Virus record (IMG/VR): IMGVR_UViG_3300042534_000692
Location: 1 to 31,090 of that record
Length of the DNA: 31,090 nt
Reading direction: 5' to 3' (one strand)
DNA from: a virus
The notes under the pieces were generated by a model, which worked only from the letters and a program-made list of their open reading frames with translations, was not told where the DNA came from and ran no database searches. Below are positions 8,028 through 31,090 of the stretch, in pieces (the first letter of the stretch is position 1; each line of letters starts with the position of its first letter). Both the position numbers and the translations under genes were made by a program.

Positions 8028-8161
8028 TTTTTTTTCTCAATTTTTGCTACTATATAAAGAGGTATAATTATGCTTGTTATCCAAGTGCCTATAATAGCTA
8101 TTAATAACATTCCTATCAACGATAAGATAGGATATAATGTAGATAAAGTTAAATTAGTCAT
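8024..8161 (-). CDS. Small single-span membrane protein (45 aa)
   Basis: Start chosen at 8161, where AAGGAG stands 7 bases upstream; a longer frame from 8248 would overlap the duplicated coding sequence of the gene before it and has no ribosome site. The 45-aa product MTNLTLSTLYPILSLIGMLL continues into IAIIGTWITSIIIPLYIV and a basic end AKIEKKK: one long membrane segment with its C-terminus probably in the cytoplasm. Its start overlaps the stop of the 53-aa gene. The function is unknown. Confidence 0.7.
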   Translation of the reverse strand: MTNLTLSTLYPILSLIGMLLIAIIGTWITSIIIPLYIVAKIEKKK

Positions 8162-8315
8162 AATCGTTCTCCTTGTTTGATATTGTCTTATCAAATATAT
8201 TGTGATGCTCGACTTCAAGAATAACTGTGTAATTGTTTCTCTTATCAACTTTATTTTCTACAGCAACTGTGTAATTGTTTCTCTTATCAACTTTATTTTC
8301 TAAACATGTAATCAT
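8154..8315 (-). CDS. Small 53-aa protein with a 14-residue tandem duplication
   Basis: First gene behind the promoter at 8393-8420, with an ideal ribosome site (AGGAGG then ACGAAA before the ATG). The product begins MITCL, then ENKVDKRNNYTV appears twice in tandem (14-residue period), then ILEVEHHNIFDKTIS and NKENDYD. The DNA copies (38 bases, 42-base period) are identical, so the duplication is recent and in frame. It is charged with no membrane segment. Its stop overlaps the next start (ATGACTAA). The family is not recognised. Confidence 0.75.
   Translation of the reverse strand: MITCLENKVDKRNNYTVAVENKVDKRNNYTVILEVEHHNIFDKTISNKENDYD
8223..8302. repeat. Identical 38-bp tandem repeats, 42-bp period
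   Basis: 8223-8260 and 8265-8302 are identical, separated by 4 bases. The period is 14 codons, so the 53-aa gene keeps its frame. Confidence 0.95.
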
Positions 8316-8355: not shown

Positions 8356-8392
8356 CAACACTATTTAACTTATTTTTATATCTTATAAGTAC

Positions 8393-8420
8393 ATTATAGC
8401 GTCATAACGTCATATGTCAA
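8393..8420 (-). promoter_or_regulatory. Strong sigma70-type promoter of the small-gene cluster
   Basis: On the minus strand: TTGACA (8420-8415), 16 bases, TATAAT (8398-8393), with AAAAAAAGAC immediately upstream and a CTTATAAG box at 8389-8382 near the expected start site. It drives the 53-aa gene and probably the cluster down to about 4770. Confidence 0.9.
8399..8410. promoter_or_regulatory. Operator-like box GCGTCATAACGT in the promoter spacer
   Basis: The box lies between the -10 and -35 elements of the minus-strand promoter. A matching box, GCGTTATGACGT, is at 8520-8531 on the other side of the divergent region. Together they read GCGTYATRACGT, nearly self-complementary, so a dimeric repressor site is likely. 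Confidence 0.55.
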
Positions 8421-8458
8421 GTCTTTTTTTAAATAAATTTACAAAAAACCAAAAATAA

Positions 8459-8487
8459 TTGCTTAATTATATACGATGTTTTATAAT
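8459..8487 (+). promoter_or_regulatory. Promoter of the alphaCTD-like gene
   Basis: TTGCTT (8459-8464), 17 bases, TATAAT (8482-8487). The DNA upstream, shared with the divergent promoter, is almost pure A/T from 8424 to 8458. The leader to the start codon at 8564 is about 70 bases and contains the operator-like box at 8520. Confidence 0.7.
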
Positions 8488-8519
8488 ATGCCGCTGTGGA
8501 CAGAGATTTTTATATTGTT

Positions 8520-8531
8520 GCGTTATGACGT
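8520..8531. promoter_or_regulatory. Operator-like box GCGTTATGACGT in the alphaCTD gene leader
   Basis: Partner of the box at 8399-8410. It lies about 33 bases after the -10 of the plus-strand promoter, where a bound protein would block transcription. CGTTATGACG here is exactly the reverse complement of CGTCATAACG at 8400-8409. Confidence 0.5.
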
Positions 8532-8563
8532 TCTTATTATTAATAAAAAAGAATGGAGTAAAA

Positions 8564-8815
8564 ATGAAGGCTATAATTGAATGTGATCTGCGGTATCTTG
8601 AGCTCCCAATTGATGATTTAAAGTTGTCACTTAGATTAACTCGTACTCTAATTTATGCGAATATTGAATTTATCAAGGATTTAGTTCAATGCACAGAAAC
8701 AGACTTATTATTAATTCCAAATGTAGGTGTAAAATCACTTAATAAAATTAAAAAAGAATTAGCTGCTCGTTGGTTATGTCTTAGAGAAACAAAATATAAA
8801 TTTGAAAAAACATAG
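8564..8815 (+). CDS. Stand-alone RNA polymerase alpha C-terminal-domain-like protein
   Basis: An 83-aa protein starting at 8564 (GGAG 6 bases upstream; an earlier frame from 8459 would begin inside the promoter). Residues 14-75 match the C-terminal domain of bacterial RpoA: LPIDDLKLSLRLTRTL, then FIKDLVQCTETDLLLIPNVG, VKSLNKIKKELAAR. In E. coli alpha, R265, N268, G296, K298 and S299 contact UP-element DNA. Here R24, G55, K57 and S58 occupy those places, and only N268 differs (R27). The N-terminal assembly domain of alpha is absent. Such a protein could bind A/T-rich promoter DNA or sigma/activator surfaces and redirect host polymerase. The homology is clear; the mechanism is inferred. It is followed 9 bases later by the 77-aa gene. 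Confidence 0.88.
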   Translation: MKAIIECDLRYLELPIDDLKLSLRLTRTLIYANIEFIKDLVQCTETDLLLIPNVGVKSLNKIKKELAARWLCLRETKYKFEKT

Positions 8816-8824
8816 GAGAAAAAC

Positions 8825-9058
8825 ATGAAAGGTATACTTGAATTCGATTTGCCAACAGACAATGAATATTTTAATGGAGCAAGTAAGTCAATAAAATTTT
8901 GGCTTTGTCTAAGTGAACTTGAAGAATATATAAAAAGTGAACTTGAAGAATATATAAAAAATGGAAGTACAAATGAATCTGATTATACTGAGAAAGTATA
9001 TAAAAAATTTTGGGAAATATTAGATGATCATAATGTAACATTAGAAGAATATAGTTAA
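8825..9058 (+). CDS. Conserved phage small protein (77 aa) with internal tandem duplication
   Basis: A 77-aa acidic protein, start AGGAG 7 bases upstream. MKGILEFDLPTDNEYFNGAS resembles a common phage family opening MKAxLEFxLPED followed by W-x-L-x-E helices. LSELEEYIK-SELEEYIKNG comes from a perfect 24-bp tandem duplication (8911-8958). The C-terminus is IRDW-like only in outline: FWEILDDHNVTLEEYS. It is co-transcribed with the alphaCTD-like gene and converges on the HTH gene, the two stops overlapping by 4 bases. The function is unknown. Confidence 0.75.
   Translation: MKGILEFDLPTDNEYFNGASKSIKFWLCLSELEEYIKSELEEYIKNGSTNESDYTEKVYKKFWEILDDHNVTLEEYS
8911..8958. repeat. Perfect 24-bp tandem duplication
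   Basis: 8911-8934 and 8935-8958 are identical, adding 8 codons (SELEEYIK) in frame to the 77-aa gene. Confidence 0.95.
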
Positions 9059-9281: not shown

Positions 9282-9512
9282 CTACGTAACTTCATAATAA
9301 ACTAACATTCTATTTAATTCTGCATTAAGCTGTAATATTTCAAATTCTAAATCATATAGAATCCTATTATAGAATTTTAATAAGTTTTTTTCTTGAATTT
9401 CTCTCAATAATTTCAATAAATTTGTTGTATGTTTATCTATATGAAGTAAAGATTCTCTGTCAATTACTCCTAACTTAGATTCACCATCGCTTAAAATTTT
9501 TGTTGCTTCCAT
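9282..9512 (-). CDS. Hypothetical 76-aa helical (coiled-coil) protein
   Basis: Not recognised. A 76-aa protein, MEATKILSDGESKLGVIDRE then leucine-rich helices NLLKLLREIQEKNLLKFYNR and DLEFEILQLNAELNRMLVYY, likely coiled coils. It has a strong ribosome site (AGGAGG, 7 bases before the ATG). The leader between the promoter at 9623 and this gene carries two tandem GC-rich hairpin repeats. It is upstream of the HTH gene in the same operon. Confidence 0.7.
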   Translation of the reverse strand: MEATKILSDGESKLGVIDRESLLHIDKHTTNLLKLLREIQEKNLLKFYNRILYDLEFEILQLNAELNRMLVYYEVT

Positions 9513-9536: not shown

Positions 9537-9601
9537 ATTTCTAAGCTGCCTGTGCGGCAGTCAACCTCGGTAATTTCTAAGCTGCCTGCGCGGCAGTCAA
9601 C
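9537..9601 (-). repeat. Two tandem 29-bp hairpin repeats in the leader of the 76-aa gene
   Basis: 9537-9565 and 9573-9601 are identical except one base, with a 36-base period. On the minus strand each contains CTGCC-loop-GGCAG (5-bp GC stem, 5-base loop with GCGCA or GCACA), flanked by GTTGA and CTTAGAAAT. These GC-rich hairpins stand out in A/T-rich DNA. There is no T-run, so they are not typical terminators. Confidence 0.8.
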
Positions 9602-9622: not shown

Positions 9623-9650
9623 ATTATATCCTTGATTTACTTAATGTCAA
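9623..9650 (-). promoter_or_regulatory. Promoter of the 76-aa / HTH gene pair
   Basis: On the minus strand: TTGACA (9650-9645), 16 bases, TATAAT (9628-9623), followed by ATTATAAG at 9618-9611, related to the CTTATAAG box at the other two promoters. The A7 tract lies further upstream here (about 12 bases). Confidence 0.85.
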
Positions 9651-10003: not shown

Positions 10004-10031
10004 ATTATATCTTTAATTTGTTTAATGTCAA
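10004..10031 (-). promoter_or_regulatory. Promoter of the 75-aa gene
   Basis: On the minus strand: TTGACA (10031-10026), 16 bases, TATAAT (10009-10004), then CTTATAAG at 10000-9993. The DNA from here to the start codon resembles that from 8398 to 8315. Confidence 0.9.
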
Positions 10032-30398: not shown

Positions 30399-31090
30399 TT
30401 AAAGCCAAAAACTCTCTGGTTGATAGTAAGGTTTATCTTCAGATACAGCAGGCGTTTTATTAACATGATAACCTTCCATTGCCCCATATTGTAAACAATC
30501 AGCAATATCACTGAACGGATGACTCTTGTTAGGAACATCTCTGTAAGATTCATCACCAATTACACGCATACGCTTGTAATAATAATATCCATTCATAGAC
30601 TTGCGAAGTGTAGGACAATGTGCGCGAGAAAGCAAGAAGGCCGGCTCGCCAAAAATCAATCTTGTCAAGAAATATTTTACAGATTCGAGTCTAGGCAATA
30701 AAACATTCGTACGTGCTTGTTGTGTATTTATACCTTCTTCTCTTAATATCTCCATCGCGCTTATTGCAGCTTCTGATACACCACCACCCGCATCTCCAGA
30801 AGGATCACCAACAGAAACAACAGAACATCCTCCGTAATTCATATTTATAAAGGGCTTAACTACATCTCGAGCAAGCTCTCTGATAAACATACGTTCAGTC
30901 GTAAACTCTTTAATACACCTTAATTGACCATCATCTCTAAATTGCATAATCAAACACGCAGGAGTAAGTCCGAAATCCCAGCACAGATATATAGCTTCAT
31001 TCTCAAGCACCGGAACCTCATCTATACTATGAACATCATCATTATATTCATCGAATACATGCTTGCCTTTTACTACAATACCCCACTCTC
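30399..31090 (-). CDS. Terminase large subunit, C-terminal (nuclease) part
   Basis: The second part of the packaging terminase, entering at the window end and stopping at 30399. After the joint it reads GIVVKGKHVFDEYNDDVHSI. The RNase H-like nuclease has its acidic sites in CWDFGLTPACLIMQFRDD, VSVGDPSGDAGGGVSEAA and HPFSDIADCLQYGAMEGY. The bases 31083-31090 duplicate 1-8; treating them as one copy keeps the frame, while counting both puts a stop 11 codons on. The true protein is 518 aa. The stop lies 18 bases before the portal start. Confidence 0.93.
   Translation of the reverse strand, partial: EWGIVVKGKHVFDEYNDDVHSIDEVPVLENEAIYLCWDFGLTPACLIMQFRDDGQLRCIKEFTTERMFIRELARDVVKPFINMNYGGCSVVSVGDPSGDAGGGVSEAAISAMEILREEGINTQQARTNVLLPRLESVKYFLTRLIFGEPAFLLSRAHCPTLRKSMNGYYYYKRMRVIGDESYRDVPNKSHPFSDIADCLQYGAMEGYHVNKTPAVSEDKPYYQPESFWL

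Follow-up and report, generated by a model that had tools for sequence, protein, structure and literature searches.

The open reading frame (ORF) at positions 8564–8815 of a 31,090-base phage record (the whole stretch of DNA analysed, hereafter the window) is identified by profile, sequence and predicted fold as the C-terminal domain of the bacterial RNA polymerase alpha subunit, RpoA (alphaCTD), encoded here as a protein of its own. We put at about one half the probability that this free alphaCTD is a small early transcription modulator, which would bind A/T-rich promoter DNA and compete with the host alphaCTD or its activators at UP-type promoters. It is through the alphaCTD that the polymerase reads UP elements and takes input from many activators. 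If phages do use this domain in free form, a protein of some 80 residues could rewire host promoter preference in trans, and a natural example would make the role of an untethered alphaCTD in a cell directly testable.

The ORF runs on the + strand from an ATG at 8564 to a stop codon at 8813–8815 and encodes 83 amino acids. The profile search against the RpoA C-terminal family that a sequence-only reading of this DNA had proposed gives a clear match: Pfam RNA_pol_A_CTD (PF03118) scores 58.3 bits (E-value 6.5e-16, hmmscan) against a curated cut-off of 23.8 bits, with residues 9–67 aligned to profile positions 8–66 of 67, and reaches 57.7 bits in a genome-wide search of the 31-kb record. Among PDB sequences, phmmer matches the E. 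coli alphaCTD at 8.5e-11, and down to an E-value of 0.14 its matches are RNA polymerase alpha subunits only. Of the other helix-hairpin-helix families, HHH_5 comes closest with 16.6 bits, short of its own cut-off of 27, and AF1548-like scores 13.6 bits against its own cut-off of 23.9; no PHROGs family profile matched the protein or its relatives convincingly. The motifs DLVQCTETDLL and PNVGVKSLNKIKKELA are present as the sequence-only reading had quoted them. Its alignment with the RpoA C-terminal domain "across its length" stands for the domain, and fails for codons 1–9, which derive from another phage gene, and for the last ~8 residues, which form a low-confidence tail. It was also right that the polymerase assembly domain is missing, because the NCBIfam RpoA models match in their last part only; TIGR02027 (complete RpoA), for instance, aligns at positions 233–296 of 298 with 45.6 bits (cut-off 227.8), and no alphaNTD dimerisation/assembly domain lies upstream within the 83-aa ORF. 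Neither rpoA nor a second alphaCTD was found elsewhere in the whole 31,090-base record. Contamination, or a fragment of host rpoA, was ruled out, as this is the sole alphaCTD of the record, phage genes surround it and collinear sister phages exist.

AlphaFold returned an unusable model without an alignment (pLDDT 53). With an alignment of 29 rows, comprising the 83-aa protein and 28 viral relatives gathered here, the pLDDT was 87 overall and 94–97 over residues 11–70. When this model was compared with the PDB by Foldseek, the best 48 matches were all RpoA. The overlay on the E. coli alphaCTD that had been suggested as a check was made with VIA-align 2, and the two superpose with a Z of 12.7 and an rmsd of 1.1 over 67 residues; the first non-RNAP structural matches are Dmc1 (Z 8.8) and RAD51 (Z 8.5), both with an rmsd >4. 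The sequence-only reading had named a fold other than that of alphaCTD, or a better match to another helix-hairpin-helix family, as what would speak against it. With RpoA ranking first in Foldseek, a Z of 12.7 against 8.8 and 8.5, and HHH_5 below its cut-off, the comparison favours alphaCTD on both counts, although a lower rank alone does not rule a fold out.

Like the RpoA alphaCTD (PF03118; PDB 3k4g, 1lb2, 1z3e), with which it shares the fold and a near full-length profile match, the 83-aa protein keeps R265 (as R24), N294 (N53), G296 (G55), K298 (K57) and S299 (S58), in E. coli numbering. It differs in being phage-encoded, in having neither alphaNTD nor linker, in nine phage-derived codons and in the changes N268 to R27, C269 to T28, E302 to K61 and E261 to K20; K271, K291 and K297 are also changed, to I, L and V. 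The statement that four of five UP-element contacts persist (R24, G55, K57, S58), with R27 in place of N268, is thus accurate. N268, C269 and E302 occur in all 18 RpoA references; these are functional-surface residues, and the assignment of the domain rests on profile and fold. Across the viral alphaCTD clusters, R265 is found in 30 of 31, N268 in 19 and an arginine at 268 in 6. The conservation of R265 is informative because this position lay outside both IMG/VR scan patterns. For N294, G296, K298 and S299, conservation among the viral proteins is biased, as these positions were part of a scan pattern. Net charge shifts little (+2, against an RpoA median of 0). Since N268R, E302K and E261K fall at DNA-facing and sigma-facing positions, the phage domain is no plain replica of the host surface. 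With N268, C269 and E302 changed and K271, K291 and K297 lost, its affinity for DNA may be low.

Three sister phages were found by a scan with RecT of the window phage, and two of their records, L106 and L107, are collinear with the window across most of the early region. The alphaCTD gene is absent from all three sister records. The slot behind the rightward promoter holds alphaCTD in the window, a hydrophobic protein of 133 aa in L106 and a 180-aa MT-A70 methyltransferase (2.4e-29) in L107 (Table 1). Since the sisters keep the divergent promoter and hold other genes in this slot, the alphaCTD gene is optional cargo in a variable slot. Variation extends to the leftward flank of the divergent promoter, where L106 encodes a pentapeptide-repeat-like protein (712–1038) and the window (8154–8315, - strand) has a small ORF based on a 42-bp tandem repeat.

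The 5' end of the alphaCTD gene points to a second source. Its first 27 nt are identical to the start of the resident gene at 25 of 27 positions in L106 and 24 of 27 in L107, and to the copy at 8825 in the window at 21 of 27; the next-best match elsewhere in the L106 locus reaches 18. In blastn, positions 8558–8589 match L106 at 93.9% (E-value 4e-6) and 8552–8591 match L107 at 87.5% (E-value 1e-6). From the identity to the L106 resident-gene start and the blastn matches, the ORF is a chimera of nine codons of a resident phage gene and an RpoA alphaCTD, which may have arisen by recombination at the start codon. The L106 gene directly after the slot starts MKAIIEFDLPED, and its product is 53% identical to that of window 8825–9058. 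In L107, the resident MKAILEFDLPED gene is shortened after ~20 codons (about 388–442, - strand). The MKGILEFDLP family is widespread in phages and common in viral contigs with no alphaCTD nearby, which rules out the EFD-type gene as a specific partner of alphaCTD. A putative fusion of an EFD-type protein with alphaCTD in L008 was dropped, as the profile did not detect it.

Table 1. Mapped features of the divergent promoter region, the alphaCTD operon and the corresponding slot in sister phages (window coordinates unless a sister record is named).
Feature	Position	Strand	Basis
Leftward promoter, TTGACA-16-TATAAT (12/12)	8393–8420	-	Promoter scan; region kept in sister phages
CGTTATGACG, operator-like copy within leftward promoter spacer	8400–8409	-	Repeat search
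A/T tract, 38 bp, 87% A+T, upstream of both -35 elements; UP-element-like position	8421–8458		Sequence
Probable alphaCTD-operon promoter, TTGCTT-17-TATAAT, weak -35	8459–8487	+	Sequence; below scanner threshold
CGTTATGACG, inverted second copy in alphaCTD 5' leader	8521–8530	+	Repeat search
GGAG ribosome-binding site, 5' of alphaCTD ATG	8555–8558	+	Sequence
alphaCTD-like ORF, 83 aa, without alphaNTD or linker	8564–8815	+	Pfam, phmmer PDB, AlphaFold, Foldseek/VIA-align
First nine codons of alphaCTD gene, derived from 5' end of resident MKAI(I/L)EFDL early gene	8564–8590	+	Nucleotide identity, blastn
77-aa acidic protein (net charge -10), MKGILEFDLP family; 9 nt downstream of alphaCTD gene, same operon	8825–9058	+	Sequence; L106 counterpart
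Slot cargo in sister: MT-A70 adenine methyltransferase	L107:583–1125	-	
Slot cargo in sister: hydrophobic 133-aa (membrane) protein	L106:79–480	-	

The divergent region (~8375–8537) is common to the window, L106 and L107, and comprises the leftward promoter, the central A/T tract and a rightward TTGCTT-17-TATAAT-like promoter, the TTGCTT of which is conserved in the three phages. The best UP-consensus score is 13/14, and the site matches the leftward promoter only if an offset is allowed. Because L106 and L107 conserve the A/T tract equally and both are without alphaCTD, it cannot be assigned as a private target of the phage domain, and a dedicated UP element was not supported. The two copies of CGTTATGACG compare with 0.64 expected, a weak excess.

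AlphaCTDs without an alphaNTD are present in about 60 IMG/VR contigs: a scan with a small alignment gave 61 loci and a second scan 62, with large overlap. A full rpoA is not among the 61 ORFs: four are truncated at a contig end, and the complete ones span 76–320 aa and include other segments. Terminase_6N matches in 9 of 32 of these records identify at least those 9 as phage. In a tree with bacterial RpoA there are at least four virus/RpoA changes, counting well-supported branches alone: L013, L014, L027 and L028 lie among alphaproteobacterial RpoA, L026 and L076 with Bacillota, and L062 and L063 with RpoA from a gut contig. These placements point to several independent captures of host rpoA by phages. 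The window domain itself is on a long branch (3.97) and groups, at poor support, with beta/gamma-proteobacterial RpoA. For pairs of related viral genes that differ sufficiently, dN/dS is 0.05–0.24, which shows purifying selection on related viral alphaCTDs; the window gene itself has no close homologue. No direct stand-alone relative of the 83-aa protein was found in IMG/VR or GTDB genomes, and its single genome match is an ordinary Clostridia rpoA. One viral protein (L026:4455–5195) joins sigma-70 region 4 (8e-15) to an alphaCTD (2.3e-23), a fusion that ties alphaCTD to transcription initiation in phages; by eye, L062, L063 and L067 resemble it. As to cultured phages, five INPHARED matches were examined: four are bacterial rpoA copies, and the fifth is a weak domain of Ruegeria phage V16. 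The phage-filed records holding bacterial rpoA (L003, L004, L005 and L007, the rpoA of L005 having ribosomal protein genes around it) are mislabelled bacterial contigs.

T4 Alt and ModA ADP-ribosylate the alpha subunit of host polymerase. Rac of phiKMV-like phages leads to cleavage of alpha (PMC7552054). These systems share the host alpha subunit as their target, but modify or cut it, whereas the phage alphaCTD is a copy of part of alpha. Carriage of such a copy, which the sequence-only reading had called a different strategy, is not supported as unique, given the annotated alphaCTD protein of Erythrobacter phage vB_EliS-L02 (ORF40; PMC9127768) and the IMG/VR contigs. Database-named phage alphaCTD proteins (uncultured Caudovirales phages, Rhodococcus phage Finch, Mycobacterium phage Mithril) have the same fold, but are longer (111–240 aa) and 20–30% identical to the 83-aa protein. 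Open-access full text, a scope with subscription papers mostly outside it, held no functional study of a phage alphaCTD that we could find, and the word "phage" is absent from a 2026 review of alpha subunits (PMC13374769). New here are the minimal form, the chimeric start and the cargo slot; the kind of phage gene itself was already known, though unexplored.

According to the proposed mechanism, a phage with a P22-type portal would have captured the C-terminal domain of a bacterial RpoA, which was then spliced, in the cargo slot, onto the start codon and the nine opening codons of a resident early gene. From an operon directly behind the divergent promoter, the domain would be made free and untethered, probably early. 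Folded as an alphaCTD, as predicted with high confidence, it would bind A/T-rich promoter DNA via R24, N53, G55, K57 and S58, perhaps with extra charge from R27 and K61, and could then compete at UP-element-type promoters with the tethered host alphaCTD, or with activators that use it, or else work beside the host alphaCTD. This modulator reading is supported by the identity in profile, sequence and fold, with no other alphaCTD in the record; by the DNA-facing residues kept, R265 above all; by the purifying selection in related viral genes; by the joining of sigma-70 region 4 to alphaCTD in L026; and by the location behind a divergent promoter with conserved A/T tract and TTGCTT, in a slot filled by other cargo in the sisters. 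DNA binding by a free alphaCTD has precedent, as the isolated B. subtilis domain, with no other part of the polymerase present, binds promoter DNA in gel shifts, and in the Spx complex also a partner protein; it differs in being the host's own domain, as a purified fragment (PMC2801614). The reading is weakened by the altered or lost DNA-facing residues listed above, by the loss of the avidity of a tethered pair, and by an A/T tract that is not a protein-specific site.

It is unlikely that the domain works instead as a positive bridge, a co-activator in trans that, next to a phage -35, would recruit polymerase by contacting either a phage activator or, through the 261 determinant, region 4 of sigma. 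D258 and D259 of this determinant are kept (D17, D18), sigma region 4 and alphaCTD are fused in L026, and the operon's own promoter has a weak -35 with A/T-rich DNA upstream; yet E261, a central sigma-contact residue in E. coli, is charge-reversed to K, and the sisters keep the same promoter region without the gene. Quite unlikely is a decoy that, without acting on DNA, would titrate host activators or other alphaCTD-binding proteins (287 determinant), or an alpha-sensing host defence protein. T285 and E286 persist (T44, E45) with an acidic D47 at 288, and one of the slot-mates encodes an MT-A70 methyltransferase, and genes of that type often play a part in host interaction. However, V287 is lost, no partner was identified, and the conservation of R265 across viral members favours DNA.

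We consider very doubtful a role outside transcription, in which the helix-hairpin-helix-like surface would let the domain assist phage recombination or replication by binding DNA. The commonest neighbour matches at 29 viral loci are YqaJ (6), ERF (3), SSB (3) and NinG (2), and the YqaJ recombination exonuclease gene overlaps or touches the alphaCTD stop codon in four viral loci (L015:5297, L022:4895, L045:5186, L059:3840), which may mean a non-transcriptional role there and to that extent weakens the modulator reading; the window phage, too, has RecT, RusA and a DUF669 ssDNA-binding-like protein. Such genes are ordinary in early regions of these phages, though, the next gene in the window is not a recombination gene, and the sigma-4 fusion speaks for transcription. 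A neutral recent acquisition without function would fit the long branch and the three sister records without alphaCTD, but is highly improbable with a domain core that is intact and modelled at high confidence, a good ribosome-binding site, a compact operon and strong purifying selection on related viral genes. Beyond the modulator reading, several independent captures, purifying selection and the sigma-4 fusion together raise this from a single-contig curiosity to a phenomenon at the level of a family. It is possible, as a tentative generalization, that phages have repeatedly captured their hosts' alphaCTD alone as a free trans-acting promoter factor that can be combined with other domains, sigma region 4 among them, and that these proteins form a distinct regulator class, built from the very domain with which the polymerase reads DNA and activators. 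The occurrence of the lone domain in dozens of uncultured phages, where selection maintains it, suggests a common, unstudied phage route to meddling with host gene switches.

The window phage encodes a P22-like portal, RecT, RusA, the DUF669 protein, a DnaD-like loader and an endolysin. Since the two ends of the record adjoin in a sister phage, with 31088 at L108 5893 and 1 at L108 5888, it is close to whole, a near-complete, circularly permuted genome; positions 1–8 and 31083–31090, which adjoin in the sisters, share a short CCACTCTC stretch. Near-identical 29-bp repeats, each with a GCTGCC...GGCAG hairpin, lie at 9537–9565 and 9573–9601, just upstream of an ORF at 9282–9512. Three perfect 12/12 sigma-70 promoters (TTGACA-16-TATAAT) occur on the - strand, the leftward promoter and two more at 9623–9650 and 10004–10031. 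All three are followed after 4–5 nt by TTATAAGAT, present in 5 copies in the window against 1.4 expected, and promoter and motif together are a shared early-promoter/leader element.
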